A DNA stretch of 64,000 bases from assembly GCF_900148505.1 (NCBI RefSeq), contig NZ_FRXO01000005.1, positions 341,434-405,433 on the forward strand, read 5' to 3'. This document shows, piece after piece, positions 40,235-60,019 of the stretch; position 1 is the stretch's first letter, and every line of letters begins with the position of its first letter. Source of the stretch: Pseudoxanthobacter soli DSM 19599 (GTDB lineage Bacteria > Pseudomonadota > Alphaproteobacteria > Rhizobiales > Segnochrobactraceae). The notes below the pieces were generated by a model that was given only the letters and a program-made list of their open reading frames with translations, made no database searches and was not told the DNA's origin. A program made the translations under genes and the position numbers.

Positions 40235-42166
40235 ATGAAGCGCGAAACGTCCACGATGCCGCCGCCAGCGTCGCCCGTCGTGCCTTCCGGCAGCGAGGGA
40301 AGCTCCGCGCGTGCCGAAGCGCCGTCGAGAGGCGACGCGCCCGCTCGGTGGACCGTTCCGCTCGGCTGGGTGCTGGGCGGCGGCTACGGGCTTCTGCTGT
40401 TCGTCTCGCTCGTGATCGTGCTGTCGATCGCGGTCACCAGCAACTACAACAACACCTACAGTCTGCTCCGCGACAAGGCGATCCTGGTGATGGATCTCCT
40501 GTCGAGCCGCATCTCCGACCAGCTCGCCCCGGCGGAACTCGCCGCCAACGACATCGCCTCGCTTTACGCCGCTGGCGCTTTCGAGACGGATCGGCAGGAC
40601 GACCGGCAGATGCTGGCGCTGCTGGAAGGCGCCCTCGTCGGCAATTCGTCCGTCGGCGGCGCGGTGATCTACGACCGGAATTTCGATGTCGTCGGGTTTT
40701 ACCGGTCGAACGACGGCGCGATCCAGAAGCTCGCCGACGGCTCGGTGGAGGCGCTCAGCGAAGGCGATCGGAAGGTGCTCTCCGCGATGCCGGCGCACGC
40801 CGGCGCGACATGGGAGCCCCTGCGCTTCACCGCGGGCAACCTCGTCGCCAGCGTCGCCGCCCCCCTCGACCGCGACGGCCAGCGCGGGGGCTATGTCGTC
40901 GCCGCGGTCACGGCGGAAGCGCTCAGCCACGTCGTCGCCGAACTGGGGCAGGGCACGCGCGTCACGGCCTTTCTGCTCGATTCAAAGGGGCAGGTGTTCG
41001 CCCACTCCGGTGGCTCGGCGCTCAAGCTCCCCGACGCGATCAACCGCAACCACGGCTGGGTCACGCCGGCCGACATCGGCGACCGGGTGCTCGTCGCCTA
41101 CGAGGATGAAGACCAGCCCGCGACGCTCGCCCGGGTCGCCGGCGACATCAACATCGACCAGGTGGAGGTGGGCGAGGATTCCTACATCATCATCACCCGC
41201 CAGCTGAACAGGTTCGGCGCGAAGCCTTGGACCGTCGGCGCCTACATGCTGTCCGCCGATACCCTCGACCAGCTGCGCGGCCTCTATGGATCGGTCATCG
41301 CCGGCATCGTGATGATCGTCATCGCCATCGCGCTCGCGCTCTGGATCGCGCGGCGCATTGCAAGGTCGATCGGCCAGCTTCGCACCGAGGCCGATCGCAT
41401 CGCCGCGCTCGACCTCGACGCCGCCCGCCAGGTTCCGTCGAGCCGCATCGCCGAGTTCGACAGCGGCGCGCGCGCCTTCAACAACATGCTGGAGGCCGTG
41501 CGGGCCTTCTCGCGCTATGTGCCGAGCGGGCTCGTTCGCCGGCTGATGCGGTTCGGCTTCGCCGCCGCGACCCGGCCCGAGCGGCGCATCGCGGCGATCA
41601 TGTTCACCGACCTCGCCGGCTTCACCACGCTCTCCGAGGAACTCAGCCCCGAGGACGTGTCGCTGCTGCTGAACCGCCATTTCAGCGCGCTGGTCGCCTG
41701 CGTCGAAGCGGAGAACGGCACCGTCGACAAGTTCCTCGGCGACGGCATGATGGCGGTGTGGGCCGAAGGCTCGCCTGCGGAGAACGCCGCTCGCGCCGCC
41801 CGCGCCGCCGTCGCCATCGCCCGCGCGGTCGAGGAAAGCGCGGCGCAGGCCCGCGCCGAAGGCGCTCTGGTGCTGCGGGTCCGCATCGGGCTTCACGTCG
41901 GCCCGGTGATCATCGGCAATCTCGGCGCGACCGAGCGCGTCAACTACACCACCATCGGCGATACGGTGAACGTCGCTTCACGGCTGGAGGCGTTCGGCAA
42001 GACACTCGCCGACGCCGACGCGCAGGATGCCGTGGTTCTGGCGACCGGCGATCTGGTCCAACTCGCCGATCCCGGCATTCGCTGTGCGGCGATCGGCGCG
42101 ACCGCGCTCAGGGGCCGCTCCGGCGCGCTCACCGTCTACCGCATTCTGCCTCACGCGGCGCCGTGA
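40235..42166 (+). CDS. Membrane class III adenylate cyclase
   Basis: 643 residues. Membrane helix at about 47-67, an extracytoplasmic sensor (about 70-340, dCache-like by size), a second helix at about 352-372, a HAMP domain (about 373-425) and a class III cyclase domain (about 450-640). Catalytic features are Asp459 (MFTDLAGFT) and Asp503 (FLGDGMM) for metal, Lys499 and Asp576 (IGDTVNVASR) for adenine, and Arg583. It should make cAMP in response to an outside signal. The cAMP-binding-type protein at 58722 in this window is a possible, untested target. Confidence 0.93.
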   Translation: MKRETSTMPPPASPVVPSGSEGSSARAEAPSRGDAPARWTVPLGWVLGGGYGLLLFVSLVIVLSIAVTSNYNNTYSLLRDKAILVMDLLSSRISDQLAPAELAANDIASLYAAGAFETDRQDDRQMLALLEGALVGNSSVGGAVIYDRNFDVVGFYRSNDGAIQKLADGSVEALSEGDRKVLSAMPAHAGATWEPLRFTAGNLVASVAAPLDRDGQRGGYVVAAVTAEALSHVVAELGQGTRVTAFLLDSKGQVFAHSGGSALKLPDAINRNHGWVTPADIGDRVLVAYEDEDQPATLARVAGDINIDQVEVGEDSYIIITRQLNRFGAKPWTVGAYMLSADTLDQLRGLYGSVIAGIVMIVIAIALALWIARRIARSIGQLRTEADRIAALDLDAARQVPSSRIAEFDSGARAFNNMLEAVRAFSRYVPSGLVRRLMRFGFAAATRPERRIAAIMFTDLAGFTTLSEELSPEDVSLLLNRHFSALVACVEAENGTVDKFLGDGMMAVWAEGSPAENAARAARAAVAIARAVEESAAQARAEGALVLRVRIGLHVGPVIIGNLGATERVNYTTIGDTVNVASRLEAFGKTLADADAQDAVVLATGDLVQLADPGIRCAAIGATALRGRSGALTVYRILPHAAP

Positions 42167-42474
42167 CCCTGCGCCGGCGGGGCGCGCGGCCAAAATGCAC
42201 GGCGCCGGGATGTATGCCGGCTTCTGAATTGCGTGCGGCCGGCTCGGTCTGGCGCTCCCGTCCGATCGGAAAGCGCTCCAGCGGCTTTCGGACGCAAGGC
42301 CCGGATGCCGCCAGAAATCGCCGTTCGGACAGCGAAATTCGTCCTGCCCCCCTGTTTCCTTAACGGCGCCGTGCGGTCATAGTCTCGAACGGTCCGGCGA
42401 TGGATGGACCGGGTCGGCATGAGGGGCGGTGCGGGGAGCGGCGAGCCCCCGGAGCCAGCCCCCGGCTTCAGGGG
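42167..42474. other. 308-bp gap ahead of the peptide ABC importer operon
   Basis: No gene is supported. It contains tcggaaagcgctcc (42266-42279), a 14-base word that also occurs at 9205-9218. The promoter of the importer operon is probably near 42350-42400 (ttccttaacggcgccgtgcggtcatagtc) but is not certain. Confidence 0.5.
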
Positions 42475-44376: not shown

Positions 44377-46346
44377 ACGCCGCCCGTCTCGCCCTTTCCG
44401 GCCCGGCAGCCCTGTTCGGGTCCGCCGTCCGCCTCGCGTCCGCGCTCGGGCTCTGCGTGCTGTTGGCGGGCGTCCTGCCGCCGGCCGCCGCCCGCGCCGC
44501 CTCCGATCCCGCGCCGGCGGCGGAAGCGGAGGGACCGCAGCTTCCGCCGCTCGCCGAGCGGCTGCCGAAGGAGCCTCTGGTCGTCAATCTCGAGGCCATG
44601 GGCCTCAAGGTCGGCAAGCCCGGCGGTTCGATCCGCACCCTGATCAGCCGCGTCAAGGATGCGCGCATGATCACGGTTTGGGGATATGCCCGCCTCGTCG
44701 GCTACAACGAAAAGCTCGAGATCGTGCCGGATATCCTCAAGTCCGTGGATGTCGAGGATGGGCGCATCTTCACGCTGCACCTCAGGGCCGGTCACAAGTG
44801 GTCGGACGGCAAGCCCTTCACCGCCGAGGATTTCCGCTACTACTGGGAGGACATCGTCGGCAACAAGGAACTGACGCCTGCCGGCCCGGAGCCGTTCCTG
44901 CTGGTGAACGGCGAAATGCCGACATTCGAGGTCATCGACGATCTCACGGTGCGCTACAGCTGGAGCAAGCCGAATGCGTTGTTCCTGCCGAGTCTGGCGG
45001 CTGCTCGCGACCCCTTCATCTATCGCCCGGCGCACTACCTGAAGCAGTTCCATATCAAGTACGCCGATCCCGACAAGCTGGCGGCGATGATCAAGAAGAA
45101 GAAGGCGCGCTCCTGGGCTGCGCTTCACTTCAAGATGGACAATCTCTACGACGCGATGGACCCGCATGAACCGTCGCTGCAGCCGTGGGTGCCGTCGGAA
45201 AATTCGTCCGATCGCCGGCTGGTCATGCGCCGCAACCCCTATTTCCATCGCGTCGATGAAACCGGTCAGCAGCTTCCCTATGCCGACGCGGTGGTGATGA
45301 ACGTGGTCTCCGCCAGCCTGATCCCGAGCCAGACCCAGGCGGGCGAGGCCGATCTTCAGGCGCGCGGATTGTCCTTCCCGGACATCACGGTGCTGAAGCG
45401 CGGCGAGGCGCAATCGGGCTACCGCACCTATCTCTGGCCGATGTCCACCTCGAACCAGGTGGCCATCTACCCGAACCTGACCGTGGCCGATCCGATGTGG
45501 CGCACGCTGCTGCGCGACACCCGCTTCCGCCGCGCGCTGTCGCTCGGCATCGACCGCGACATGATCAACCGCGTGCTCTATTTCGGCCTTGCCGAGCCCT
45601 CGAACAACGCCGTGCTGTCGAAGAGCAAGCTGTTCGAGCCGGATTTCCGCACGAAGTGGGCGACCTACGATCCGGCGGAGGCCAACCGGCTGCTCGACGA
45701 GGTCGGGCTCAAGAAGAAGCGCAGCGACGGCATCCGCCTGCTGCCGAACGGCGAGCCGCTCCAGATCGTCATCGAGGCGGACGGAACCAGCCAGGAACAG
45801 GTCGACATGCTCCAGCTCGTCGCCGAGACGTGGCGGGAGATCGGCGTCAACCTGTTCGTGAAGGGCTCTGACCGCGACATCATGTGGAACCGCGCGCTCG
45901 CCGGCAGCCTCGTGATGATGGCCGCGAACGGCTACGACAATGGCATCCCGACGAGCGAGATGAGCCCGGCCGAGCGCGTGCCGTCCGACAGTTCCTTCGT
46001 GCTGGGCATGGGCTGGGGCGCCTATCGCGACAGCGAAGGCGCCAACGGCGAGAAGATCGACTATCCGCCGGTGCAGAAGCTGATGGATGCCTATAACGAC
46101 TGGCTCTCCGCACGCGACGACGATGCACGCACGGCGGCCTGGAAGACCATCATCCGCACCCATGTGGACGAGACGCTCTCGATCGGCATTGTAGCTTCGG
46201 TGAAGCAGCCGGTGGTGGTGGCCCGCAAACTGATGAACGTGCCCGAAACCGCGTTCTACGGCTTCGAGCCCGGCGCGTTCTTCGGCATCTACCACATGGA
46301 CTGCTTCTGGTTCGACACGAACAACAAGACCGCCGATCGGAACTGA
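44373..46346 (+). CDS. Periplasmic substrate-binding protein, SBP_bac_5 (peptide/nickel) family
   Basis: 657 residues; ATG overlaps the ATPase stop (ATGA). A long signal sequence ends near PAAARAAS (about residue 47). Family motifs are FTLHLRAGHKWSDGKPFTAEDFRYYWED and FRRALSLGIDRDMINRVLYFG. It is longer than classic DppA (about 535) because of internal insertions. Presents a peptide, opine or similar ligand to the permeases; the ligand cannot be read from sequence. Confidence 0.93.
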   Translation: MNAARLALSGPAALFGSAVRLASALGLCVLLAGVLPPAAARAASDPAPAAEAEGPQLPPLAERLPKEPLVVNLEAMGLKVGKPGGSIRTLISRVKDARMITVWGYARLVGYNEKLEIVPDILKSVDVEDGRIFTLHLRAGHKWSDGKPFTAEDFRYYWEDIVGNKELTPAGPEPFLLVNGEMPTFEVIDDLTVRYSWSKPNALFLPSLAAARDPFIYRPAHYLKQFHIKYADPDKLAAMIKKKKARSWAALHFKMDNLYDAMDPHEPSLQPWVPSENSSDRRLVMRRNPYFHRVDETGQQLPYADAVVMNVVSASLIPSQTQAGEADLQARGLSFPDITVLKRGEAQSGYRTYLWPMSTSNQVAIYPNLTVADPMWRTLLRDTRFRRALSLGIDRDMINRVLYFGLAEPSNNAVLSKSKLFEPDFRTKWATYDPAEANRLLDEVGLKKKRSDGIRLLPNGEPLQIVIEADGTSQEQVDMLQLVAETWREIGVNLFVKGSDRDIMWNRALAGSLVMMAANGYDNGIPTSEMSPAERVPSDSSFVLGMGWGAYRDSEGANGEKIDYPPVQKLMDAYNDWLSARDDDARTAAWKTIIRTHVDETLSIGIVASVKQPVVVARKLMNVPETAFYGFEPGAFFGIYHMDCFWFDTNNKTADRN

Positions 46347-46351
46347 GCCTC

Positions 46352-47377
46352 ATGCTGGCCTATATCATCAGACGCACGCTGGCGATGATCCCGACGCTCG
46401 CGGTCATCAGCTTCCTGATATTCGTCGTCATCCAGTTGCCGCCCGGGGACTATCTGTCCAACCAGATCGCGGAACTGCGCTCCTCCGGCGAGGCGGCCTC
46501 GATCGCGAAGGTCGAGTTCCTGCGCAAGGAGTTCTCCCTCGACCGGCCGTTCCTCGAGCGCTACCTGATCTGGGTCGGCGCTTGGCCGGGGCCGCACGGC
46601 TTCGACGGGCTGCTTCAGGGCAACTGGGGTTGGTCGTTCGAGTACGACAAGCCCGTCGCGGACGTGGTCGGCCCCACCCTGCCGCTGACGATCATCCTCA
46701 ATCTCGCGACGGTGCTGTTCGTCTATGTGGTGTCGTTCCCGATCGGCATCTATTCGGCCACACGGCAATATAGCTGGGGCGATTACGGCTTCACGCTGAT
46801 CGGCTATATCGGGCTCGCCGTACCGAACTTCCTGTTCGGGCTCATCCTGCTCTATCTCGCCAACCGCTGGTTCGGGCTTTCCATCGGCGGGCTGATGGAC
46901 CCGCGCTATGTGGATGCGCCATGGAGCTGGGCCAAGGCGATGTCGATCTTGGGTCACCTCATCGTGCCGACGATCGTGATCGGCACTGCGGGAACCGCCG
47001 GCATGATCCGCAGGCTGCGCGCCAACCTGCTCGACGAGATTCACCGGCAATATGTCGTCACCGCCCGCGCCAAGGGGCTGAGCGAGCGCAAGCTTCTGGT
47101 GAAATATCCGCTGCGGATGGCGCTCAATCCGTTCATCGCCGATATCGGCCACCTGCTGCCGTCGCTCGTCTCGGGCTCGGTCATCGTCTCCGTGGTGCTC
47201 AACCTTCCGACCGTCGGTCCGGTGCTGCTCGATGCGCTGCGCTCGCTCGACCAGTTCCTCGCGGCCTTCATCCTGATGTTCGTGGCGCTCCTCACGGTGG
47301 TCGGCATGCTGATCTCCGACCTCCTCCTGGGCGTGCTCGATCCCCGCATCCGTCTCGGCGGAAAGGTGCGTAAATGA
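46352..47377 (+). CDS. ABC importer permease, DppB/OppB type
   Basis: 341 residues, about six membrane helices. The N-terminus (LAYIIRRTLAMIPTLAVISF) and the EAA-like coupling segment (VTARAKGLSERKLLVKYPLR) are typical. Follows the binding-protein gene by 5 bp and overlaps the next start by 4 bp. Confidence 0.95.
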   Translation: MLAYIIRRTLAMIPTLAVISFLIFVVIQLPPGDYLSNQIAELRSSGEAASIAKVEFLRKEFSLDRPFLERYLIWVGAWPGPHGFDGLLQGNWGWSFEYDKPVADVVGPTLPLTIILNLATVLFVYVVSFPIGIYSATRQYSWGDYGFTLIGYIGLAVPNFLFGLILLYLANRWFGLSIGGLMDPRYVDAPWSWAKAMSILGHLIVPTIVIGTAGTAGMIRRLRANLLDEIHRQYVVTARAKGLSERKLLVKYPLRMALNPFIADIGHLLPSLVSGSVIVSVVLNLPTVGPVLLDALRSLDQFLAAFILMFVALLTVVGMLISDLLLGVLDPRIRLGGKVRK

Positions 47378-48552
47378 GTTCCGAAGTGTCCGCGACGCCC
47401 GGGCCGCGCACGCCCCACTATGTCGATCCGCGTCCGTTCGATCCGGCGGAGACGGAGATTCTGACGCCGGAGCAGGAGCGCTTCTATCAGGCATCGCAGT
47501 GGAGCATCATCTGGATGCGCTTCCGCCGCCACCGCGTGGCGGTGTGGTCGGGCGTCATCCTGATCCTGTTCTATCTGTGCGTGCCGTTCGCCGGCGTGAT
47601 CGCGCCCTATACCCCGAGCGACCGCGACAACTATCATCTCTATGCGCCGCCGCAGGGCCTGCACCTGTTCCACGACGGCAAATTCGTCGGCCCCTTCGTC
47701 TACGGGCTGAACGCGCGCGTCGACATGGACGAGATGCGGTGGGTCTACGAGGTCGACGAGACCGCCGTGCAGCCGCTGCGCTTCTTCTGTTCCGGCAGCC
47801 CCTATTCGTTCTGGGGCGTAGTCGAAACCCGCTTCCATCTCGTCTGCCCGGCAGAGGGCGGCACGTTCTTTCCGCTCGGCACCGACCGTCTCGGGCGCGA
47901 CATCTTCTCCGGCCTCATCTACGGCGCGCGGATTTCGCTCACGGTGGGCCTCGTCGGCGTCGCCATCTCCATCGTGCTCGGCATGTTCTTTGGCGGCATC
48001 GCTGGGTTCTTCGGCGGCTTCGTCGACACCGCCATCCAGCGCCTGATCGAGATCATGCGCTCGCTTCCCGAACTGCCGTTGTGGATGGCGCTGTCGGCCG
48101 CCCTGCCGGTGACGTGGAGCCCTGTGCTGATCTATCTCGGCATCACCGTGATCCTCGGGCTGCTCGACTGGCCGAGCCTTGCGCGCGCGGTACGCTCCAA
48201 GCTGCTCGCGCTGCGTGAGGAGGACTATGCCCGCGCGGCCGTGATGATGGGGGCCTCGCCGCGGCGCATCATCTTGCGCCACCTGCTGCCGGGTTTCACC
48301 AGCCACATCATCGCCTCGGCCACGCTGGCGATCCCCGGCATGATCCTCGGCGAGACGGCTCTGTCGTTCCTGGGTCTCGGCCTGCGGCGCCCTGCGGTGA
48401 GCTGGGGCGTGATGCTGAACGAGGCGCAGAACATCACGGCGGTGACCGTCTATCCGTGGCTGATGGCGCCGACGATCCCCGTCATCATCGTCGTGCTCGC
48501 CTTCAACTTCCTCGGCGACGGCATGCGGGACGCGGCCGACCCTTACAAGTAG
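47374..48552 (+). CDS. ABC importer permease, DppC/OppC type
   Basis: 392 residues. A cytoplasmic N-terminal extension, then a first helix (WSGVILILFYLCVPFAGVIA), a large periplasmic insert (about 80-160), and the core with the EAA-like segment EEDYARAAVMMGASPRRIIL. Last gene of the importer operon. Confidence 0.95.
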   Translation: MSSEVSATPGPRTPHYVDPRPFDPAETEILTPEQERFYQASQWSIIWMRFRRHRVAVWSGVILILFYLCVPFAGVIAPYTPSDRDNYHLYAPPQGLHLFHDGKFVGPFVYGLNARVDMDEMRWVYEVDETAVQPLRFFCSGSPYSFWGVVETRFHLVCPAEGGTFFPLGTDRLGRDIFSGLIYGARISLTVGLVGVAISIVLGMFFGGIAGFFGGFVDTAIQRLIEIMRSLPELPLWMALSAALPVTWSPVLIYLGITVILGLLDWPSLARAVRSKLLALREEDYARAAVMMGASPRRIILRHLLPGFTSHIIASATLAIPGMILGETALSFLGLGLRRPAVSWGVMLNEAQNITAVTVYPWLMAPTIPVIIVVLAFNFLGDGMRDAADPYK

Positions 48553-50135: not shown

Positions 50136-50897
50136 CTAGGCTGCAAACAGCGCGGGCAGGTCCGGCCAGAGCGCGGCCGGGTGGGAGGCGGCGACTGAAA
50201 CGAACGCCTCGACGAACGTCCACACGGCATCGTCGTGGGCGAGGTGATGGGTGAGAAGGCCGATGGGGGCCGCCGCATCCCGCCGCGCCGTGATCTGCTC
50301 GCCGGAGATGGCAAGCGCCTTGGCGTCGCCGATATAGCCCCGGTCGATGCGCCAGGCGATCGGGTCGACATGCGTGTCGACCCGGGCTGGCGCGCCGTCG
50401 AGCGCACCGAAGGCGGAAAGCCCGGGCAGTACCGCCTCGCCCCGCCGCTCGGCGACGGCGGGCGCGATGCGGTTCCAGGGTGGCGTCAGTACCGGCAGGA
50501 ACCGCTGCGGAAACAGCGTCTCCAGCCGCGCCCGGCCGGCGACGAGTTCCGCGAGCACCGCGTCCACGGGCCGGGCGTCGCCGAGTTCGGCCGCGCGGCT
50601 GCCGGCCGGCTGGTGATTGGTGTGGCTCCAGCCGTGCTGGATCGCGTACGTGTTCCGCGTGCGCTCCACCCGCGCGCCGAGCGCCTCTGTCGCGCCGGCG
50701 GGGATGACCGCCAGCGCCAGCGGCACGCCGTGACGCTCCGCGATACCGATCAGCCGCTCCAGGGCCGGCGTCGGCTCCACGGCATCGTCGTCACGCCACC
50801 AGAACGAGACGGTGCGGCCGGCCGCCGCCACGTCGTCGAGCAGGGCGCGGAAGCCGGCCGCGAATGCGGCGGGCGTGGCAGGCGGTGCATCCGTCAT
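50136..50897 (-). CDS. Polysaccharide deacetylase-like protein
   Basis: 253 residues. Metal and catalytic motifs of the carbohydrate esterase 4 fold are recognisable: SFWWRDDDAVEP (about 36-47), HGWSHTNH (about 97-104), and LTPPWNRIAP. No signal peptide, so it is probably cytoplasmic and acts on a sugar precursor or lipid-linked sugar. Overlaps the preceding glycosyltransferase gene by 4 bp and is the last gene of the block. Confidence 0.85.
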   Translation of the reverse strand: MTDAPPATPAAFAAGFRALLDDVAAAGRTVSFWWRDDDAVEPTPALERLIGIAERHGVPLALAVIPAGATEALGARVERTRNTYAIQHGWSHTNHQPAGSRAAELGDARPVDAVLAELVAGRARLETLFPQRFLPVLTPPWNRIAPAVAERRGEAVLPGLSAFGALDGAPARVDTHVDPIAWRIDRGYIGDAKALAISGEQITARRDAAAPIGLLTHHLAHDDAVWTFVEAFVSVAASHPAALWPDLPALFAA

Positions 50898-52042
50898 CTC
50901 GGCTTCCGTGCGGCTTCGATCAGAATGGCGGCGCTGTGAAGGGCGCCTTCGGTGTCCACGGTCGTGGCGGGCGGGCGGCCGGCGGCGATGGCGGCATCGC
51001 AGGCGGCGGCGAGGCTGGAGGCATCGACCGCCGCCTCTTCGAGCACCGTCGCGCGCCCGCGGGCGGCGAGCAACTGCGCGCGCTGGCTCTGTTCGGTCTC
51101 CCGGCCTTCCGCGAACGGCACCAGAACCGCGGCGCAGCCGGCAGAGAGCACATCGAGCACGGTGTTGTAGCCGGCCTGGCTGACCGAGAGCCGAGCCCGG
51201 TGGAGTATCCGCGCGAAGTCCGGCCGCGCCGGTTCGACGATCGTGCCGGCGCCGGCCCGCGCCTGAAGCGCCCGGAGCATCGCCCCGCCGTGTTCATGGC
51301 CGACGAGAATGCGCCACGTCGCATCTCCGGCCCGCCGGGAAAGCGCGCGCGCGCCGAGCGCGGCCTCGATCAGCCGCCCGCCCACCGGCCCGCCGCCGCA
51401 CGAGACCACCACCTCGTCGCGGCCGTCCTCACCCGCCGGTTCCAGCGCCGAAGGCGTGTGAACGAAACCGGTGTAGCGGATCAGGTCCGCGATCTCGCCG
51501 GCGAACGGAAAGCTGTCTTCGAGGCGGACGAACGACGGATCGGCGTGCACCAGCACCAGATCGTAGAGCCTCGCCGCCGTCTCGGCCATGGCGCGTTCCT
51601 TGGCCAGATCCTCCTTGCGAACCAGAATGTCGCGCACGGACGAGGCGACCAGCGCGCCGCTCCGGGCGGCGCGGACGGTCTCGATCAGCGGCTCCAGTTC
51701 GAAGGCGAATTGCCGGCGGCCGAACGGAAAGGTCTCGGTCACGAGGATGTCCGGCGCGACCCTTTGGGCGATGGCGGTGAGCACGCGGGTCCGTTCGGCC
51801 CGCCACGCATCGCCGATGGGCGCGCCGGCCTCGTTCAGGATGCGGGCGAAGCTCGCGTCGGCCGCGCGGGCCGGCGCAAGCCGCTCGATGGCGAGGCCGC
51901 CGGTGTCGAGCGTCGGCGGCAGGCGGTTGCCGGTGACGAGGGTGACGGCGACGCCGGCCTCGGCCAACGCCCGGCCGATGGCCGCCGCGCGGACCGCGTG
52001 TCCGGTGCCGAGCAGGTGCTGGACGTGGATGAGCGCCTTCAT
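50894..52042 (-). CDS. MurG-like (GT-B, UGT/GT28 type) glycosyltransferase
   Basis: 382 residues. Starts MKALIHVQHLLGTGHAVRAAAIGRALA, with the GTGH glycine/histidine loop of GT28-type enzymes; the C-terminal nucleotide-sugar site is VVSCGGGPVGGRLIEAAL and LSVSQAGYNTVLDVLSAGCAAVLVP. Coupled by 4-bp overlaps to both neighbours. Confidence 0.9.
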   Translation of the reverse strand: MKALIHVQHLLGTGHAVRAAAIGRALAEAGVAVTLVTGNRLPPTLDTGGLAIERLAPARAADASFARILNEAGAPIGDAWRAERTRVLTAIAQRVAPDILVTETFPFGRRQFAFELEPLIETVRAARSGALVASSVRDILVRKEDLAKERAMAETAARLYDLVLVHADPSFVRLEDSFPFAGEIADLIRYTGFVHTPSALEPAGEDGRDEVVVSCGGGPVGGRLIEAALGARALSRRAGDATWRILVGHEHGGAMLRALQARAGAGTIVEPARPDFARILHRARLSVSQAGYNTVLDVLSAGCAAVLVPFAEGRETEQSQRAQLLAARGRATVLEEAAVDASSLAAACDAAIAAGRPPATTVDTEGALHSAAILIEAARKPR

Positions 52043-53157
52043 GGCAATTGCTCCGTGCGCGCCGTTCGCTCGCGGTGAACCGTCGTCGCGCCGGCGAGAA
52101 GGGCGGTCAGCCCGGCCCGTCCGGCGGCGAGGTCGTGGCGGGCGAGCACATGGCGACGCGCCGCCACTCCCATGCGATGGCGCAGGCTTCCGTCGTCGAT
52201 GAGAGTGGCGAGCGCCGCGGCGAAGCCCGCCGCATCGCCCTCGGCAGCCAGCAGCCCGGTCTCGCCGGGGCGGACGATGGCGGCGACGCCATCCCGGTCG
52301 CCGGCGACCACCGGCAGCCCTGCCGCCTGCGCCTCCAGCAGCACGAGCCCGTAGGCCTCGTTGATCGCCGGCCAGACCTTGATGTCCGCGTCGCCGTAGA
52401 GCGCCGGCAAGGCGACCGGCGGAACGGCACCGGCGAAACGCACCCGGTCGGGAGGAAACAGGGCTCGCACCTCGTCGCGCGCCGGTCCGTCGCCGACGAT
52501 GGTCAGGTGCCAGGGCCGGTCTTCCAGCCGGGCGAGCGCGTTCGCGAGCACGCGGTAGGAGGCGACCTTGTCGCCCGGCCGCATCATGCCGACCGCGATC
52601 AGCCGGACCGGCCCGCCGTCGGCATCCAACCGGGGCACGGCTGCGAACGGGACGGCATCGATGAAGGGCGGCAGGGCGTGGAGACGCCCGGCGTCGACCA
52701 CGGCGGCAAGGCCTTCCCGGTCGCCCTCGTGCATCGCTGCCACTGCATCGGCCGCGGCGAGCGCGCCGTCGGCGAGGGTGAAGCGCGTGGCCCATGGTCC
52801 CGTCGCCCGCTTCGCCGCCCGGCTCGCCTCGACGATGGCATAGGGAATGCGGCGGCCGGCGGCGACCGCGGGGCCGATCAGGTCGGGCGCCTTGTGATAG
52901 TTGTGGTAGGTGAGCCAGAGATCGAAATGCGGGGCCTGCGGTGCGAGCAGGCGGGCGATCTCTGCCGACGCCCCGGCGCGGAGCGCGGTGTCGCGCGCAT
53001 CATCGGGCACCGCCGCCCACGACACGAACGAGGTCGCCGGCACGGTCTTATGGCCGAGGTCGCCGAGCGCGCGCACCATCAGCCGCGCCATGGCGAGATC
53101 GCCCGAAGGCACCTCGCTCGACAGCGGCTTCAGCGGCGTGTGAAGGGCGATGCGCAT
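52039..53157 (-). CDS. GT4-family glycosyltransferase
   Basis: 372 residues. The C-terminal domain has RLIAVGMMRPGDKVASYRVL, WHLTIVGDGPARDEV and the EX7E-type segment INEAYGLVLLEAQAAGLPVVA with two key glutamates. The N-terminal half opens MRIALHTPLKPLSSEVPSGD. It should add a sugar from a nucleotide-sugar donor to a growing glycan. Confidence 0.92.
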   Translation of the reverse strand: MRIALHTPLKPLSSEVPSGDLAMARLMVRALGDLGHKTVPATSFVSWAAVPDDARDTALRAGASAEIARLLAPQAPHFDLWLTYHNYHKAPDLIGPAVAAGRRIPYAIVEASRAAKRATGPWATRFTLADGALAAADAVAAMHEGDREGLAAVVDAGRLHALPPFIDAVPFAAVPRLDADGGPVRLIAVGMMRPGDKVASYRVLANALARLEDRPWHLTIVGDGPARDEVRALFPPDRVRFAGAVPPVALPALYGDADIKVWPAINEAYGLVLLEAQAAGLPVVAGDRDGVAAIVRPGETGLLAAEGDAAGFAAALATLIDDGSLRHRMGVAARRHVLARHDLAAGRAGLTALLAGATTVHRERTARTEQLP

Positions 53158-53172
53158 CGGACCGGAACGGGA

Positions 53173-54393
53173 TCAGGCGGCCACGGCCGCCCGGTGCCGC
53201 AGGAGCGCGGCCATGCGGTCGAGCCCCGGGTCGGTGGAGAACCGTTCGCGCACCACGCGGGAGGCCGTCTCGCCGAGGCGCCGGCGCAATTCGGCGTCCG
53301 TGATGAGCCGCTCCAGCGCACCGGCGAGAAGGTCGGGCCGCCGTTCCGGCACCATCAGGCCGGTCCTGTCCTGCTCGATGATCTCCGGCACCGCCGAAAT
53401 CTCGGTCGAGAGGCAGGCGAGGCCCTGGGACTGGGCTTCCATCAGCACGTTCGGCAGCCCGTCGCGGTCGCCGTTGCGGGTCACCCGGCAGGGCAGGATG
53501 AAGATGTCCGCCCGCCGGTAAGCCTCGATCACGTCGGTCTGGGCGAGCGCGCCGCGCCATGCCACGCGGTCGGCAATGCCGAGCCGTTCGGCCAGCGCCT
53601 TCAACCGTTCGCTCAGCGCCCCGCCGCCGATGTGCTCGAACCGCCAGTCGAGCCCTGCCGGCAGGCGCGCGAGCGCGCGCAGCGCGTCGTCGATGCCCTT
53701 CTTTTCCACAGCCCGGCCGACGCAGAGGATGCGCACCGCGCCGTCGCGGTCGCTCCGGTCCGGCGGCGCCGGCAGGCGACTGAAATCGAGCCCGTGATAG
53801 ACGAGTTCCACCTTCGCGGGATCGTCGGCGAGCGAGCGCAGATAGGCCGCATTTGCGCCGGTGCAGGTCGCGCCCCATTCCGCGCCCGCGATCTTGTCGC
53901 GAAGCTCCCACGCCGGCGAGGTCCAGATGTCCTTGGCGTGAGCCGAGAACGACCACGGCAGGCCGCGCAGCATCGCCGCGTAGCGGGTGACGGAGGCGGG
54001 GGTGTGCAGGAAATGCACGTGCAGGTGCTCGATATCCGCCGGAAGCTCACGGGCGAGCACGCAGGCCTGGCCGAGGCGGCGCCAGCGGCTCGCCGAACGG
54101 TCGCGGGCGAGATCGGTCTCGAAGGCCGCGTGCATCGCGGCGTAGGTCGGCAGCGCCTGCGCATAGGCCCGGCCCGCGGCGACGCGGGGCGGATCGTCGT
54201 GGAGATATTCCGGCAGGTAGAGAACGTCGGCCTCGATCTCGCGGTGGATCGGGTGCACCGCTCCATCGGTCGGGCGGCGCAGCGAGACGATCAGCACCTC
54301 GATGCCCCGGCGTTCGAGGCCGCGGATTTCCTGGGCGACAAAGGTTTCCGACAGCCGCGGATAGCCTTTCACGACGATTGCGATACGGCCCAA
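53173..54393 (-). CDS. GT4-family glycosyltransferase
   Basis: 406 residues. It starts MGRIAIVVKGYPRLSETFVAQEIRGL, typical of colanic-acid type GT4 enzymes, with FSAHAKDIWT in the acceptor domain, RILCVGRAVEKKGIDDALRA at the donor site and DGLPNVLMEAQSQGLACLST carrying the EX7E motif. Separated from the next gene by 15 bp. Confidence 0.93.
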   Translation of the reverse strand: MGRIAIVVKGYPRLSETFVAQEIRGLERRGIEVLIVSLRRPTDGAVHPIHREIEADVLYLPEYLHDDPPRVAAGRAYAQALPTYAAMHAAFETDLARDRSASRWRRLGQACVLARELPADIEHLHVHFLHTPASVTRYAAMLRGLPWSFSAHAKDIWTSPAWELRDKIAGAEWGATCTGANAAYLRSLADDPAKVELVYHGLDFSRLPAPPDRSDRDGAVRILCVGRAVEKKGIDDALRALARLPAGLDWRFEHIGGGALSERLKALAERLGIADRVAWRGALAQTDVIEAYRRADIFILPCRVTRNGDRDGLPNVLMEAQSQGLACLSTEISAVPEIIEQDRTGLMVPERRPDLLAGALERLITDAELRRRLGETASRVVRERFSTDPGLDRMAALLRHRAAVAA

Positions 54394-54519: not shown

Positions 54520-55734
54520 TCAGCCGGCCGCCGCCACGAGGCGCGGCCCCTGGCGGGTGGAAAGGATGTCCTTCACACGCCCGTTGATGACGTCGAGCCC
54601 ACCGAGAAGGTGGGGGATGCCCGCCATCGAGGGGGGCGGCTGGCCAGGCAGGCTGGCGAGCGCGTCCGCCATGGCGTGGACATCCGGGTAGAAGTCGATC
54701 GGCAGCACACGGGCGAGCCCGGCCTCGGTGGCGAGCGAGGCGCGGATCGCCTGCTCCCGGCGCGGCACTACGCGCGGAACAAGCAATGTCGGCTTGTCGA
54801 ACGACAGGATCTCGCAGAACACGTTGTATCCGCCCATCCCGACGATGGCGGTGGCCTGCGCCATGATGGATTCGATCTGCGGCGTGAAGGTGATGAGGTG
54901 CAAATCACGTACCTTCGCCGCGCGCTCGGCGAAGGCGGCCTGCCGTTCTGGGTCCATGAACGGGCCGAGCACGATGATCGCCGGGAACAACGGCCGGATA
55001 TGGGCCTCGTAGGTGCGGATCACCCAGTCGACCAGTTCCACCCCGTCGCCGCCGCCGCCGGGGCTGACGAGGATGTAGGGTTCCCCGCCGAACGGCGAGC
55101 GGAACGGCGCCGCGACGGCCGCCGCCGGCAGATCGCGCTTCAGATAGCCCGTGAACAGCGCCTTGGCGCGCGCGGCCTCCGACACGCCGACACCCTGCAG
55201 GGGGTCGTGGATGTCGCCGAGACCGTAGATCCAGATGTCGTCGTAGAGATCGTCCAGCGCCTGGGCGACGCCCTTGCGCTCCCACTCCTCGGCGAGCACG
55301 CCGGGATCATCCATCACGTCGCGCAGGCCGAGCACGAGCCGGGTGCCGGCGCCGCTGAGCCGTTCCAGCGTGCCGCGTACCTCGCCGCGCAGGCCGAGCG
55401 GCTCCTTGTCGACGATGAAAATGTCCGGCCGGAAGACTTTCGCCGTGTGCTCGATGATGGAGCCCCGGATCGCCAGCGTCTCCTCGATGTCGAGGTGCAG
55501 GCTCAAAGACGTATATTCGCCGTTGCGCAGCTTGATCACGCCGGGGATACGTACGAAATCGACGCGCGTGCGAAAGTCGAAGCTGCCGATGATCGGCGAG
55601 CCCGACAGGATCAGCACCGACAGATCGGACATGCTGCCCACGAGCGAATGGGCAATGGCCCTGCAGCGACGCAGGTGGCCGAGACCGAACGAATCGTGGC
55701 TATAAATCAATATTCTCGGCGTCGAGGCCCGCAT
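54520..55734 (-). CDS. MurG-like glycosyltransferase (predicted glycosyl transferase type)
   Basis: 404 residues from the ATG at 55734 (RASTPRILIYSHDSFGLGHLRRCRAIA). The FGLGHLRR loop and the C-terminal VSPGGGGDGVELVDW and AIVGMGGYNVFCEILSFDKP mark a GT-B fold related to MurG/UGT enzymes, and to the gene at 50894. First gene of the block; divergent from the ABC-like operon at 56044. Confidence 0.9.
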   Translation of the reverse strand: MRASTPRILIYSHDSFGLGHLRRCRAIAHSLVGSMSDLSVLILSGSPIIGSFDFRTRVDFVRIPGVIKLRNGEYTSLSLHLDIEETLAIRGSIIEHTAKVFRPDIFIVDKEPLGLRGEVRGTLERLSGAGTRLVLGLRDVMDDPGVLAEEWERKGVAQALDDLYDDIWIYGLGDIHDPLQGVGVSEAARAKALFTGYLKRDLPAAAVAAPFRSPFGGEPYILVSPGGGGDGVELVDWVIRTYEAHIRPLFPAIIVLGPFMDPERQAAFAERAAKVRDLHLITFTPQIESIMAQATAIVGMGGYNVFCEILSFDKPTLLVPRVVPRREQAIRASLATEAGLARVLPIDFYPDVHAMADALASLPGQPPPSMAGIPHLLGGLDVINGRVKDILSTRQGPRLVAAAG

Positions 55735-56043
55735 GTGGCTCGTCCCGCTCCGATTGTGGCGACGATCTGGGGCAAGGCATCCCCGACGGGGCCGCCGCAT
55801 CCCATATCCATGAGTGGCCCGGCGGCGAATGGCACGGCGGCGCGATGACCGTCCGGCCGGATATACCGGATGGCGCCGGCTCTCCCCGAAGCGGATGAAC
55901 GCGAACGCGTTCGGACCCTAACCTCCCGGCTGAACTACGTAAAGAGTGGCCGCAATCGAGGCGCGACAGCCGGCAATCTGTCGCTATAGTGCCGCCATGG
56001 CGCCCGCGTGGCGGCGGCGGGCGGACGAATGCAAGGCGTGGGA
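55735..56043. other. 309-bp divergent control region between glycosyltransferase and ABC-like operons
   Basis: No gene is supported. It should hold the promoters of both divergent operons. An AT-richer patch (actacgtaaagagtgg, around 55935-55950) lies on the + strand side, but I could not assign boxes with confidence. Confidence 0.5.
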
Positions 56044-58725
56044 ATGAAGAAGACGCTTTTCGGTTTCATCTGGCGGTACAGCAAGCGGCAGCAGATCATC
56101 ATCGTCCTGATCACCGTCCTGTCGTTCCCGCTGGTCTATGCCTCGCTCGAACTGCCGAAGCTGATCGTCAACGACGCCCTGCAGGGCGACAAGTTCCCGC
56201 GCACCTTCTATGGATTCGAGCTCGACCAGGTGCCGTACCTGATCGTGCTCTGCTTCTGCTTTCTCGGGCTCGTCGTCCTCAACAACGTCGTCAAGCTGGT
56301 CCTCAATATCTACAAGGGCCTTGTCGGCGAGCGGATGCTGCGGCGCCTGCGATTCCAGCTGTTCTCCCAGATCGTCCGCTTCCGGCCGGCGCATTTCCGC
56401 AAGGTGTCGAGCGGCGAGCTGATTCCGATGGTCACCGCGGAGGTGGAGGACCTCGGCGCCTTCATCGGCGACTCGATCGCGGTGCCGGCGTTCCAGGGCG
56501 GCACGCTGCTCGTCTATATCAGCTTCATCTTCATCCAGGATCCGCTGCTCGGCCTCGCCTCCATCGCGCTCTATCCGGTGCAGGGCTACATCATCCCCAA
56601 GCTCCAGAGGCGGGTGATCATCCTGTCGCGCGAGCGCATCAAGAACATCCGCCGCATCTCCGATCGCATCGGCGAGACCGTCGGCGGCTCCGTCGACATG
56701 CACGCCAACGGCACCAGCGCCTGGCACGTCGCCAACATCTCGGACCGGCTCTACGAGAACTTCGTCATCCGCTTCGCCATCTTCCGGCGGAAGTACATGA
56801 TCAAGTTCGTCAACAACTTCCTCAACCAGCTTCCGCCGTTCATGTTCTATCTGATCGGCGGCCTGCTGGTGATCAACGGCGAGATGTCGTTCGGCGCTCT
56901 GGTCGCGGTGCTCGCAGCCTACAAGGACCTGGCCGCGCCGTGGCTGGAACTCCTGAACTATTATCAGGACATGGCGAACGTCTCGGTCAAGTACGAGACC
57001 ATCGTCGAGAACTTCGATCCGCCGGAGATCTATCCGGTGAACCGCATGAGCCGCGACGACGACGACGGCAGCGAAAGGCTGAAGGGCGACGTCGCCCTCG
57101 TCAACGCCACGGGGGGCCACACCGCGACGAGCCCGGAGGTGCGCGACGTGTCGTTCTCCATCCCGGGCGGCCGTCACGCCGTTCTCGTCGGCGACGACAC
57201 CAGCGGGCGCACCGAGGCCCTTCAGATGCTGGCCGGGTTGCTGGCGCCGCAGGTCGGGCGCGTCGAGATCGGCGGGCGCGATCTCTCAAGTGTCGCCGAA
57301 ACCATGCTCGGCCGTTCCATCGCCTATTCGTCCTCAAGCCCCTACCTCTTTAACACCACCATCCGCACCAACGTGGCCTATGGCCTGCGCCACAAGCCGA
57401 TGGGCCCGCCGGAAATGCCGGAGGAGACGCTGGCGAAGCGCCGCGCCGAAGCCGAAGCGACCGCGAGCACCACCGACGAGTTCGACGCGCCGTGGGACGA
57501 CTTCGCCCGCGCCGGGGTCGAGAACATGGAAGGGCTCGAGGAGAAGATCATCGATATCCTCGAGCATCTTGGGCTGCGCGAGGACCTCTACCGCATCGGC
57601 CTTCAGGCCCGGATCTCGCCCGATGCCTCGAGCGAGTTCGTGCACGCCATCATCACGGTGCGACGCTCCATCGGAGAGCGTGTCGAGGCCGACCCGAACC
57701 TCGCCGATCTCGTGGAACTCTGGAACCCGCGCGAGATCAACCACAGCGCGACGATTGCGGAGAACATCCTGTTCGCGCTGCCGTCCGATCCGGCGACCTC
57801 CCTTGGCTCCATCCCGCACGACCCGCTCGTCGCGCGGTTCCTGGCGGAGGCGAACCTCGCGGACGATCTCGTCCATGTCGGCATTGCCGTCGCCCGCACC
57901 ATGATCGAACTGTTCTCGACCATGCGCGACGACGACGCCTTCGTCGGCTCCTATTCGTTCCTCACCGCCGAGGAACTGCCGGCCTACGAGGCGCGGCTGA
58001 AGAAGGTGAAGGGCGACAGCCTGGACGGCCTGAACAGCCTCGACCGCAACGATCTGATCGGACTTGCCTTCCGCGTGGTTCCGGCGCGCCACCGCATCTT
58101 CGACCTCACGCCGTCGCTGATCGAGCGCGTCATCGCCGGGCGCGACCTGTTCCGCGAGAAGGTGCTGCCTGCCGCCGACGGACGCTACGTGCCGTTCGAT
58201 CCGGAGGTTTATATCTCCTCGCTCTCGATCGAGGACAACCTCCTGTTCGGCAAGGTCAGGGCCGACCGGCGCGGCGCCCGCGAGCGCACCGATGAGTTCG
58301 TGCGCGAGACCGTCGCGGCGCTCGGCCTCCGGGCGCCGGTGGTGCGCGCCGCGCTCGATTTCGAGGTCGGCGTCGCCGGTGCCAGATTGACCGCCGGCCA
58401 GCGCCGCAAGATCGGAATCGCCCGGGCGCTCATGAAGGATGTGCCGACAATCGTTCTCGACGACGTGCTGGATCTCGATCCACAGACGCTGTCGTTCGTG
58501 CGCGAACGCTGCGAAGGGCGGACCCTTGTGATCGGCGCCGAGCCGGGTCTTATCCCGGCGGCGTTCGATCTCTACATACGGATGCTGGACGGACGCTTGG
58601 TGTCCAGCGGGTCTTACGATACGGTGACGGGAGCCGATATGGCCGAGCACGGGGGCGCGGACGTCAAGGGCGCCCCCGAGGAAGCCGAGGAACGCCCCGT
58701 GGCGATTGGGGAGGCCGGCGCGTGA
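56044..58725 (+). CDS. ABC-exporter-like protein with degenerate, enlarged nucleotide-binding domain
   Basis: 893 residues, far above the ~600 usual for a half exporter. Residues 1-325 are a normal type IV exporter membrane domain (six helices; FVNNFLNQLPPFMFYLIGGL). In the ATPase part Walker A is GDDTSGRT (383-390), lacking the lysine; the Q-loop glutamine is absent (AYSSSSPYLFNTT, 427-439); the signature is LTAGQ (782-786); Walker B is TIVLDDV (802-808), lacking the catalytic glutamate; no switch histidine is seen. About 390 residues separate Walker A and the signature, and contain three related blocks (starting about 438, 569 and 727). Probably a weak or non-hydrolysing ATPase. It is co-translated with a cyclic-nucleotide-binding protein. 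Confidence 0.9.
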   Translation: MKKTLFGFIWRYSKRQQIIIVLITVLSFPLVYASLELPKLIVNDALQGDKFPRTFYGFELDQVPYLIVLCFCFLGLVVLNNVVKLVLNIYKGLVGERMLRRLRFQLFSQIVRFRPAHFRKVSSGELIPMVTAEVEDLGAFIGDSIAVPAFQGGTLLVYISFIFIQDPLLGLASIALYPVQGYIIPKLQRRVIILSRERIKNIRRISDRIGETVGGSVDMHANGTSAWHVANISDRLYENFVIRFAIFRRKYMIKFVNNFLNQLPPFMFYLIGGLLVINGEMSFGALVAVLAAYKDLAAPWLELLNYYQDMANVSVKYETIVENFDPPEIYPVNRMSRDDDDGSERLKGDVALVNATGGHTATSPEVRDVSFSIPGGRHAVLVGDDTSGRTEALQMLAGLLAPQVGRVEIGGRDLSSVAETMLGRSIAYSSSSPYLFNTTIRTNVAYGLRHKPMGPPEMPEETLAKRRAEAEATASTTDEFDAPWDDFARAGVENMEGLEEKIIDILEHLGLREDLYRIGLQARISPDASSEFVHAIITVRRSIGERVEADPNLADLVELWNPREINHSATIAENILFALPSDPATSLGSIPHDPLVARFLAEANLADDLVHVGIAVARTMIELFSTMRDDDAFVGSYSFLTAEELPAYEARLKKVKGDSLDGLNSLDRNDLIGLAFRVVPARHRIFDLTPSLIERVIAGRDLFREKVLPAADGRYVPFDPEVYISSLSIEDNLLFGKVRADRRGARERTDEFVRETVAALGLRAPVVRAALDFEVGVAGARLTAGQRRKIGIARALMKDVPTIVLDDVLDLDPQTLSFVRERCEGRTLVIGAEPGLIPAAFDLYIRMLDGRLVSSGSYDTVTGADMAEHGGADVKGAPEEAEERPVAIGEAGA

Positions 58726-59171
58726 GTCTGGATATCGAAGTCGACGCCCTGAAGCGGGTGCCGCTGTTCCGCGGCATCGATCCGGCGAAGCTGCGTCTCC
58801 TGGCCTATATCAGCGAACGGATCCGCTTCCGGCAGGGCGAGCGGCTCTGCCAGCAGGGCGAGCGCGGCGAGACGGCCTATATCATCCTGTCCGGCAAGGC
58901 CGACGTCGTCATCCGCACCGGCGAGGGTGAGCGCGCCGTCGCCGAGGTGCGCCAGCACGACATCGTCGGCGAGATCTCGATCCTGATCGACGTGCCGCGC
59001 ACCGCTTCGGTCGTGGCGGCAACCGACGTCACGGCGCTCGCGATATCGAAGGATAATTTTCTCAAGATGTTGACCCGATTCCCCGAGATGGGTCTGGAAG
59101 TGATGCGGGTGCTGGCTCATCGTCTCGAACGGACGACGCGGGATCTCGCGCACGTGGGCAGGCAGTCTTAG
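58722..59171 (+). CDS. Stand-alone cyclic-nucleotide-binding domain protein
   Basis: 149 residues; GTG 58722 overlaps the ABC gene stop (GTGA). It is one Crp-type beta-roll with the phosphate-binding cassette GEISILIDVPRTASVVA, including Glu84 and Arg93, which normally contact the ribose and cyclic phosphate of cAMP or cGMP. No helix-turn-helix follows, only a short helix, so it is not a transcription factor. Coupling suggests it regulates the ABC-like protein. Confidence 0.93.
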   Translation: MSLDIEVDALKRVPLFRGIDPAKLRLLAYISERIRFRQGERLCQQGERGETAYIILSGKADVVIRTGEGERAVAEVRQHDIVGEISILIDVPRTASVVAATDVTALAISKDNFLKMLTRFPEMGLEVMRVLAHRLERTTRDLAHVGRQS

Positions 59172-59173
59172 CG

Positions 59174-60019
59174 GTGACCGATCTCAGGGAACAGGGCGGC
59201 GAGCGGATCGAGATCCGTTTCTGGGGCGTGCGGGGATCGTTGCCGACGCCGGGTACCCAGATGATGCGCTATGGCGGCGAGACGATCTGTTTCGAGATCA
59301 AGATCGGCGGCCAGCGGGTGATCGTCGATTGCGGCTCGGGCGCACGGCGCCTCGGCAAGGCGCTGCTCGACGAAGCGCCCCTCGACGTCGACATCCTGTT
59401 CACGCATTCCCACCTCGACCACGTCTGCGGGCTGCCGTTCTTCAAGCCGGCCTACATGCCGGGCTGCAGCGTGCGGCTCTGGGCGGGGCATCTGCCGAGC
59501 GCCGAGGCCCACCGCGAAGCCATCAGCCGGCTGATGTCGCCGCCGCTGTTCCCGGTGAAGCCGAAGGAGATGCGCGCCTGCCAGTTCCGGCATTTCGCGC
59601 CAGGCGACCGGGTCGTGCTGCCGTCGGGCATCGAGGCGACGACGGTGGCGCTCAACCATCCCGGCGGCGCGACCGGCTACCGGTTCGACCACGAAGGCGC
59701 GTCGGTGTGCATCATCACCGACCACGAGCACGGCAATGCCGAAGTCGACGCGGCGCTGGAGGATTTCGTCCGCGGCGCCGACATCATGGCCTATGACGCC
59801 GCCTACACGGAGGCGGATTATCCCCGGTTCATCGGGTGGGGCCATTCGACCTGGGAAAAGGCGCTCGACCTTGCCGAGCGCGCCGGCGTGCGGGTCCCGG
59901 TCATGATTCATCACGACATCTATCGCACCGACGACGCGCTCGACGAGCTCCTGTCGCTTGCCCGCGAGCGATTTCCCGCCGTGATCGCGGGTTACGAGGG
60001 TTTGGTGCTCAAAATTTAG
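59174..60019 (+). CDS. Metallo-beta-lactamase-fold hydrolase (phosphodiesterase-like)
   Basis: 281 residues from GTG 59174, 2 bp after the previous stop. Metal motif THSHLDH (His78, His80, Asp82, His83), then LNHPGGATGYRF (His about 157), CIITDHEH and VMIHHDIY supply further ligands. The opening EIRFWGVRGSLPTPG is typical of the PhnP/RNase Z-like phosphodiesterase branch, not of antibiotic beta-lactamases. Substrate unknown; a cyclic nucleotide is one possibility given the neighbour. Confidence 0.9.
   Translation: MTDLREQGGERIEIRFWGVRGSLPTPGTQMMRYGGETICFEIKIGGQRVIVDCGSGARRLGKALLDEAPLDVDILFTHSHLDHVCGLPFFKPAYMPGCSVRLWAGHLPSAEAHREAISRLMSPPLFPVKPKEMRACQFRHFAPGDRVVLPSGIEATTVALNHPGGATGYRFDHEGASVCIITDHEHGNAEVDAALEDFVRGADIMAYDAAYTEADYPRFIGWGHSTWEKALDLAERAGVRVPVMIHHDIYRTDDALDELLSLARERFPAVIAGYEGLVLKI

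Follow-up and report, generated by a model that had tools for sequence, protein, structure and literature searches.

The window analysed here is a stretch of 64,000 nucleotides from Pseudoxanthobacter soli DSM 19599 (contig NZ_FRXO01000005.1, positions 341,434 to 405,433), and the gene at its positions 56044..58725 (+), which we label ABC*, encodes an 893-residue pseudo-exporter of the ATP-binding cassette (ABC) type. What defines ABC exporters is motion powered by ATP. Judged from its sequence, ABC* fails four of the five motif criteria for a functional ATPase (Walker A Lys, Q-loop Gln, Walker B Glu and switch His). It carries a segment of its nucleotide-binding domain (NBD) in three copies, and a cyclic-nucleotide-binding domain accompanies its family at 97 of 101 loci. 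We propose, at roughly even odds (a probability of about 0.5), that ABC* is a pseudo-ABC exporter under cyclic-nucleotide control that serves a surface glycan; contact with the sensor domain, the nucleotide, the substrate and the gating step are what we infer.

Architecture, ATPase motifs and the repeated segment

ABC* is an ABC exporter by descent: PF00664 (51.2 bits, cut-off 28) at residues 64-290, counted from the ATG at 56044, is followed by PF00005 (54.9 bits) in two stretches, and both scores exceed the Pfam cut-offs. When the family profile was compared with solved structures, the transmembrane domain (TMD; residues 1-325, 56044..57018 (+)) matched P-glycoprotein (P-gp)- and MsbA-type exporters, with E-values down to 8.6e-76. 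The score against the MsbA equivalog TIGR02203 was 131 bits, far under its cut-off of 602. ABC* shares with these type IV exporters the membrane domain and the order of NBD N-part, signature and Walker B region. It differs from them in that the Walker A Lys, Q-loop Gln, catalytic Glu and switch His are absent, and in that its NBD is interrupted by an insert of about 280 residues containing two more copies of the helical-subdomain segment.

The Walker A motif reads GDDTSGRT (residues 383-390, 57190..57213 (+)), with Arg389 in place of the Lys, and the column aligned with the canonical Q-loop Gln holds Ser431. The Walker B remnant LDD (residues 803-811, 58450..58476 (+)) retains D806, with Asp807 in place of the catalytic Glu, and the switch His is missing. 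The signature is LTAGQ (residues 782-786, 58387..58401 (+)) vs. the canonical LSGGQ; among the 93 full-length members of the family its Leu is found in 89 and its Gln in 79, the middle positions being variable. An earlier note on this DNA had described the ATPase as inactive-looking, and the loss of the site is borne out and extends far past the genome of the window. The motif strings on which that note relied (GDDTSGRT, TTIRTNVAYG at 438-447, ATIAENILFA at 569-578 and LSIEDNLLFG at 727-736) each occur once, at the residues given there, and its helix-pair strings at 505-520, 599-614 and 756-771, as well as LTAGQ, were likewise confirmed.

The note had further claimed that the Q-loop/helical-subdomain segment is triplicated, and profile statistics with controls support this. 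Repeat 1 (residues 424-520, 57313..57603 (+)) consists of the Q-loop strand, the TIRTNVAYG motif and a helix-pair segment. In repeat 2 (residues 529-616, 57628..57891 (+)) a segment around Arg540 precedes ATIAENILFA, with N574, and a helix-pair segment, and in repeat 3 (residues 689-773, 58108..58362 (+)) a segment around Arg700 precedes LSIEDNLLFG, with N732, and the third helix-pair segment. Comparison of family sub-profiles by hhalign gave probabilities (P, in percent) of 93.3 for blocks 1 and 2, 95.4 for blocks 1 and 3 and 98.05 for blocks 2 and 3, vs. at most 10.2 in six pairings with reversed profiles and at most 0.46 when the blocks were paired with other parts of the protein (nine pairings, membrane domain or Walker A subdomain). 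With the blocks lengthened upstream and 93 sequences, the values were 94.4, 95.6 and 99.4, respectively (E 2e-21 over 85 columns for the last), and the controls, four reversed and three with segment 631-684, all stayed at or below 0.8. Since the lengthened profiles of repeats 2 and 3 match at 99.4% over 85 columns, these two repeats share a longer unit than the earlier note saw, made up of an invariant-Arg segment (R540, R700), the NLLFG motif (N574, N732) and the helix-pair segment. Against a canonical NBD profile built from five exporters of the same genome, block 1 matched over 24 columns corresponding to the Q-loop strand (P 96), and block 3 over 151 columns running into the signature (P 99.6). 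Block 2 by itself had no match to this profile (P 7), which counts against the triplication; the evidence for its ABC ancestry is its resemblance to the other two blocks.

ABC* is under strong purifying selection, the insert included, as measured in one species pair. Between S. meliloti (Sinorhizobium meliloti) 2011 and S. medicae, dN/dS was 0.031 for the TMD, 0.050 for the N-terminal part of the NBD, 0.035 for the insert, 0.049 for the core of repeat 2 and 0.041 for the C-terminal part of the NBD. Values of 0.03-0.05 argue that this is not a decaying gene and, together with conservation across the family, rule out a pseudogene or a sequencing artefact. It should be mentioned that at least one S. 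meliloti strain has a frame-broken copy (L124:9001-11513, CP140944.1; L numbers are our locus labels), while the frame is intact in strains 2011 (L130) and ml46.

The family is, by its matches, alphaproteobacterial. At E<=1e-30, genomes with an ABC* match numbered 60 of the 150 sampled from the order, 98 of the 289 from the class and 31 of the 398 from the phylum, counts that take in partial and TMD-only matches. A single one of the 31 matching genomes of the phylum sample lies outside the class Alphaproteobacteria, and its match is TMD-only; an additional fragment (L023) comes from a Granulosicoccaceae metagenome-assembled genome. A lineage-specific oddity is ruled out by these matches across the order, class and phylum samples. 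Plasmid-borne carriers include Sinorhizobium, Rhizobium, Azospirillum, Ruegeria and Mesorhizobium. The 93 full-length members are the 98 family reading frames less four short ones (L023, L085, L088, L090) and five identical ones, plus four plasmid copies (L125, L126, L127, L130). L024 was rejected as a relative, being an ordinary double-NBD transporter. Six TMD-only relatives (L084-L089, e.g. L085:3923-5197:- and L088:3797-5245:-) have frames of 343-483 residues with no NBD in frame and 32-45% identity to ABC* residues ~1-325; three of them (L085, L088, L089) adjoin genes that, judged by eye, are likely multicopper oxidases. A profile search of viral contigs gave one locus (L129), whose 415-residue frame matches residues 1-322 only.

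Among the 93 members, the Walker A Lys column holds Lys in 19, Arg in 40, Ala in 25 and other residues in 9, and GK[ST] is found in three (L066, L029, L092). The Walker B Asp column has Asp in 30 and Asn in 48, the catalytic Glu is found in 21, the Q-loop Gln in 8 and a switch His at the aligned column in 11. By comparison, R540, N574, R700, N732, G736 and R794 are invariant (93/93), and N443 of repeat 1 is found in 78. The degeneracy described in the earlier note holds for the closest fully aligned orthologues, L002 (68% identity) and L003 (63%), which are equally degenerate, but not for L066 (43%), which has the Walker A Lys and Thr, Walker B DE and the switch His and lacks the Q-loop Gln. 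Because close orthologues are degenerate while L066 is nearly intact, motif decay looks gradual and the family is not uniformly inactive. On a quick tree of 64 representative members, calculated with the motif columns left out, the minimum number of state changes was 8 for the Lys, 11 for the Glu, 10 for the Asp, 7 for the His, 6 for the Gln and 2 for N443. A tree rooted with four canonical exporters was unusable (end branches of 4.6-10), and the direction of change thus rests on the general rule that the ATPase motifs are ancestral in ABC ATPases. Our reading is that ATPase activity was probably lost repeatedly and gradually from an active ancestor that already carried the repeats.

A cyclic-nucleotide-binding partner and a probable polysaccharide cluster

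The gene that follows ABC*, with a GTG start codon overlapping the stop of ABC*, encodes a cyclic-nucleotide-binding protein of 149 residues (58722..59171 (+); PF00027, 80.1 bits, cut-off 27.5). PF00027 was the sole Pfam match of this protein at E<=0.1, and there was no DNA-binding domain. This partnership is new relative to the earlier note. The sensor domain is present at 97 of 101 loci (95 distinct ABC* proteins and six identical copies), as an adjacent gene on the same strand in 81 and fused to the C-terminus of ABC* in 16; the fusion had been seen in 8 of 63 in a first sample of homologues, and its state changes at least three times on the quick tree. Two of the four loci without it stop at a contig edge (L023, L090) and two do not (L102, L103). 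The segment GEISILIDVPRTASV (58968..59012 (+)), the phosphate-binding cassette of the cyclic-nucleotide pocket, has its Gly in 97, its Glu/Asp in 96 and its Arg in 96 of the 97 sensor domains. With these residues retained in 96-97 of 97 domains, against 19 of 93 members for the Walker A Lys and 8 of 93 for the Q-loop Gln, the partner has preserved its ligand site and ABC* has lost its ATP site. The predicted pocket looks intact, with cAMP or cGMP as candidate ligand.

ABC* resembles channels regulated by cyclic-nucleotide-binding domains (CNBDs) and CRP-type receptors (PF00027) in the intact-looking pocket of its partner and in the C-terminal fusion of that domain to a membrane protein at 16 of 101 loci. 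The membrane part of CNBD-regulated channels is voltage-gated-like, whereas that of ABC* has the ABC exporter fold; unlike the CRP type, the separate sensor has no Pfam DNA-binding domain.

Class III adenylate/guanylate cyclases and glycosyltransferases recur around the gene. In 47 wide loci (non-duplicate, at least 9.4 kb, of unequal length), we found homologues of a family 4 glycosyltransferase (GT4a) in 27, of the cyclase in 25, of a GT28-like glycosyltransferase (GT28) in 24, of a second family 4 enzyme (GT4b) in 13, of a second GT28-like enzyme (GT28b) in 11, of a metallo-beta-lactamase-fold (MBL) hydrolase in 10 and of a deacetylase-like protein in 8. None of these neighbours occurred at 6 TMD-only or 20 own-genome control loci, although such controls are limited in number or length, and those from the own genome are themselves ABC genes, 19 of 20 matching an importer ATPase. 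PF00211 had 106 matches in about 44 Mb of nine genomes (~2.4 per Mb), eight of which were picked for having a cyclase near ABC*; at this density a cyclase would be expected by chance at about 1 of 47 loci, vs. 25 of 47 observed. The earlier note had inferred a shift from pumping to a regulated role, and for this part of its claim the sensor at 97 of 101 loci and the cyclase at 25 of 47 provide support of an indirect kind.

A possible link to a surface glycan comes from S. meliloti, in which ABC* lies at pSymB 841723-844237 (strain 1021). In strain 2011, homologues of GT4b, the deacetylase, the MBL hydrolase, the cyclase, a peptide (opp-like) importer, GT28, GT4a, GT28b, ABC* and the sensor are shared with the window. 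The cluster of strain ml46 spans a glycosyltransferase to an FkbM gene and is followed by a LacI gene. Because SM_b21272 is a LacI-family regulator according to passages of a published account (PMC11387232), and a LacI gene comes after FkbM, we infer that the cluster corresponds to smb21252-smb21271, with ABC* at about smb21269 by gene count. Passages of another paper (PMC10128002) report that nine genes within smb21252-smb21271 are required for an uncharacterised surface polysaccharide, the phazolicin-protecting polysaccharide (PPP), that phazolicin resistance is strongly lowered in smb21252 and smb21265 mutants, and that this screen also showed depletion of the adenylate cyclase gene cyaA. 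A further study reports that predation up-regulates seven of these nine genes (PMC10315480). The presumed PPP cluster of pSymB has glycosyltransferases, deacetylase, MBL hydrolase, cyclase, importer, ABC* and sensor in common with the window; the PPP paper names the polysaccharide and two glycosyltransferase mutants, and its passages make no mention of ABC*, ATPase loss or the sensor (PMC10128002).

Passages on the msbA2 operon of S. meliloti (SMb21188-21191; PMC3687685) describe a comparable arrangement, in which an exporter gene lies beside glycosyltransferases and was proposed to serve an unknown polysaccharide. That operon has a different position on pSymB, and the coordinates rule out MsbA2 as the same gene (SMb21188 fragment at 938 kb vs. 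ABC* at 841.7-844.2 kb).

Proposed mechanism and alternatives

In the mechanism we propose, a cyclic nucleotide would have taken over from ATP hydrolysis as the control input of the pseudo-ABC exporter. The signal, cAMP or cGMP, would be produced by a class III cyclase, and the small cyclic-nucleotide-binding protein, or the fused C-terminal domain in other lineages, would bind this ligand and act on the degenerate NBD. The NBD, enlarged by two additional copies of the Q-loop/helical-subdomain segment, would relay the signal into membrane domains of the exporter type, which would in turn open, or assemble with the neighbouring glycosyltransferases, and surface glycan would be exported, driven by glycan synthesis or a membrane gradient in place of ATP. 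A bolder version, in which Alphaproteobacteria several times turned the ABC exporter fold into a new class of signal-gated conduit, a channel or glycan-translocation gate opened by cyclic nucleotides independently of ATP, the triplicated subdomains replacing the power stroke, is conceivable but strikes us as doubtful.

Several observations weigh against the cyclic-nucleotide-controlled exporter. Some members may still use ATP, given that the Lys is kept in 19 and the catalytic Glu in 21 of 93 and that L066 has lost so little; similarly, the wide retention of the signature-region Leu (89/93) and Gln (79/93) means that members may still bind nucleotide. AlphaFold models, made from an alignment of the window protein with L021, L022 and L023, were poor for the whole of ABC* (mean pLDDT 38.8) and for residues 424-790 (mean pLDDT 55.9, pTM 0.51). 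The latter model has helices after all three motifs, with low confidence in repeats 1 and 3, and is confident only in part of repeat 2 plus the following segment. A Foldseek search with it gave no PDB match at E<=0.001 (best 0.92), the model being too poor for that to be informative. No sensor gene was found at L102 and L103, which are not cut by a contig end, and of the 47 wide loci only 10 contain the MBL gene and 22 lack a cyclase inside the stretch. Finally, the effect of the cyaA mutant was small in an independent test, according to passages of the PPP paper (PMC10128002).

The main rival, which we think unlikely, is that ABC* is a scaffold and not a conduit: a membrane-anchored cyclic-nucleotide receptor that would recruit or activate the glycosyltransferases of the cluster, with the tripled segment as a docking surface. 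There is a parallel in the c-di-GMP receptors that recruit or activate some synthases. Repeated loss of the ATPase motifs with invariant repeat residues would suit such a role, as would the finding that glycosyltransferases and cyclases are the commonest counted neighbours apart from the sensor. However, in the one species pair compared the strongest constraint falls on the membrane domain (dN/dS 0.031, 98% identity), and the existence of TMD-only relatives suggests that this domain has a role of its own. Nor does the annotation of the S. meliloti cluster show any further exporter from the first glycosyltransferase to FkbM, in a gene table that is incomplete and whose two gaps hold GT28-like genes.

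A persisting ATP-dependent exporter is improbable in our estimation. Here the altered sites would bind and slowly hydrolyse ATP, or an intact partner would be encoded elsewhere, and the cyclic nucleotide would tune transport; this applies above all to members such as L066, which retains nearly all motifs. TM287/288 is a heterodimeric exporter with one degenerate nucleotide site, and heterodimeric exporters of this kind retain Walker A and have one intact site left. ABC* differs from them in losing the Lys too, in having no recurrent partner exporter nearby and in being accompanied by a sensor. Degenerate-site exporters are nonetheless well known (PMC7756269), and heterodimers of this kind, BmrCD among them, have in common with ABC* that loss of catalytic residues is tolerated in the exporter fold. 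The own genome has no fewer than 150 ABC ATPase matches (of 273 candidates, 150 were scored), and at one locus (L096) an ABC gene with canonical NBD order adjoins ABC*. Yet in the window protein a single domain has lost all four of Lys, Gln, catalytic Glu and His, and no second exporter-like ABC match recurs beside ABC*, with none among the 25 neighbour clusters listed. Still less credible, to the point of being very improbable, is a purely transcriptional pairing, with the small protein regulating the cluster as a Crp/Fnr factor and the decay of ABC* unrelated to it. The S. meliloti sensor protein is publicly annotated as a Crp/Fnr family transcriptional regulator, but the 149-residue protein of the window matches nothing except PF00027 in Pfam (E<=0.1), a DNA-binding domain being absent, and 16 of 101 loci carry the sensor domain as part of the membrane protein itself.

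If the cyclic-nucleotide-controlled exporter is real, it would be a natural experiment on an ABC fold working without its motor, in which the motifs erode while the protein stays constrained and the sensor is kept, and bacterial cAMP or cGMP would gain a non-transcriptional membrane target. Searches of the open-licence PMC literature, judged for most hits from listings, yielded no account of the ABC* family, nor of any ABC exporter that has a cyclic-nucleotide-binding domain. The idea is directly testable, since ABC* occurs in the genetic model S. meliloti, in an apparent protective-polysaccharide cluster.

Neighbouring genes

The third gene of the probable operon encodes the MBL hydrolase (281 residues, 59174..60019 (+); PF12706, 72.4 bits), a homologue of which adjoins the sensor gene throughout L001-L020 (L001 is the window copy). 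Divergent from ABC* lie genes for GT28 (54520..55800 (-); PF04101, 25.3 bits, cut-off 22) and, farther away on the same strand, GT4a (53173..54393 (-); PF00534), whose best NCBIfam match is EpsE, far under the cut-off, GT4b (52039..53157 (-); PF13692) and GT28b (50894..52045 (-), its 5' end approximate; PF04101, 44.6 bits). The deacetylase-like protein (50136..50897 (-)) had no Pfam match at 1e-3; its homologues in S. meliloti and Mesorhizobium carry the annotation polysaccharide deacetylase family.

The cyclase of the window (40235..42166 (+); PF00211, 76.5 bits) has HAMP and dCache domains, the latter just below cut-off. It lies ~14 kb upstream of ABC* and is one of six PF00211 matches in the genome; we take it to belong to the ABC* system. 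Two types of membrane cyclase recur near ABC*, one bearing a 2Fe-2S domain. Cyclases of the latter type, with a 2Fe-2S ferredoxin domain and, by eye, several N-terminal helices, adjoin ABC* in some genomes (e.g. L032:1498-3327:-); their cluster is found in 14 loci, Pfam having been run on one member. This suggests a redox input into the cyclic-nucleotide signal.

Also upstream in the window is a peptide-type ABC importer (42400-48552 (+)), named opp-like from the annotation of its homologues, which is found at L125, L130, L131 and L127 as well and accompanies the ABC*/glycosyltransferase cluster in distant Alphaproteobacteria. Cyclase and importer sit about 7-16 kb upstream in the window, and in S. 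meliloti and Mesorhizobium the same mix forms one cluster. The importer accounts for the only two other ABC ATPase matches in the window. The canonical-order gene of L096 (L096:501-2328:+; G302:C1:4034675-4045257) encodes 609 residues and lies ~1.6 kb from an ABC* with fused sensor, the sole such case among the neighbourhoods inspected. The S. meliloti and Mesorhizobium clusters also contain a DUF3095 protein, at L131:3765-4967:+ (PF11294, 434 bits) and, by annotation, at L127:15028-16191:+.

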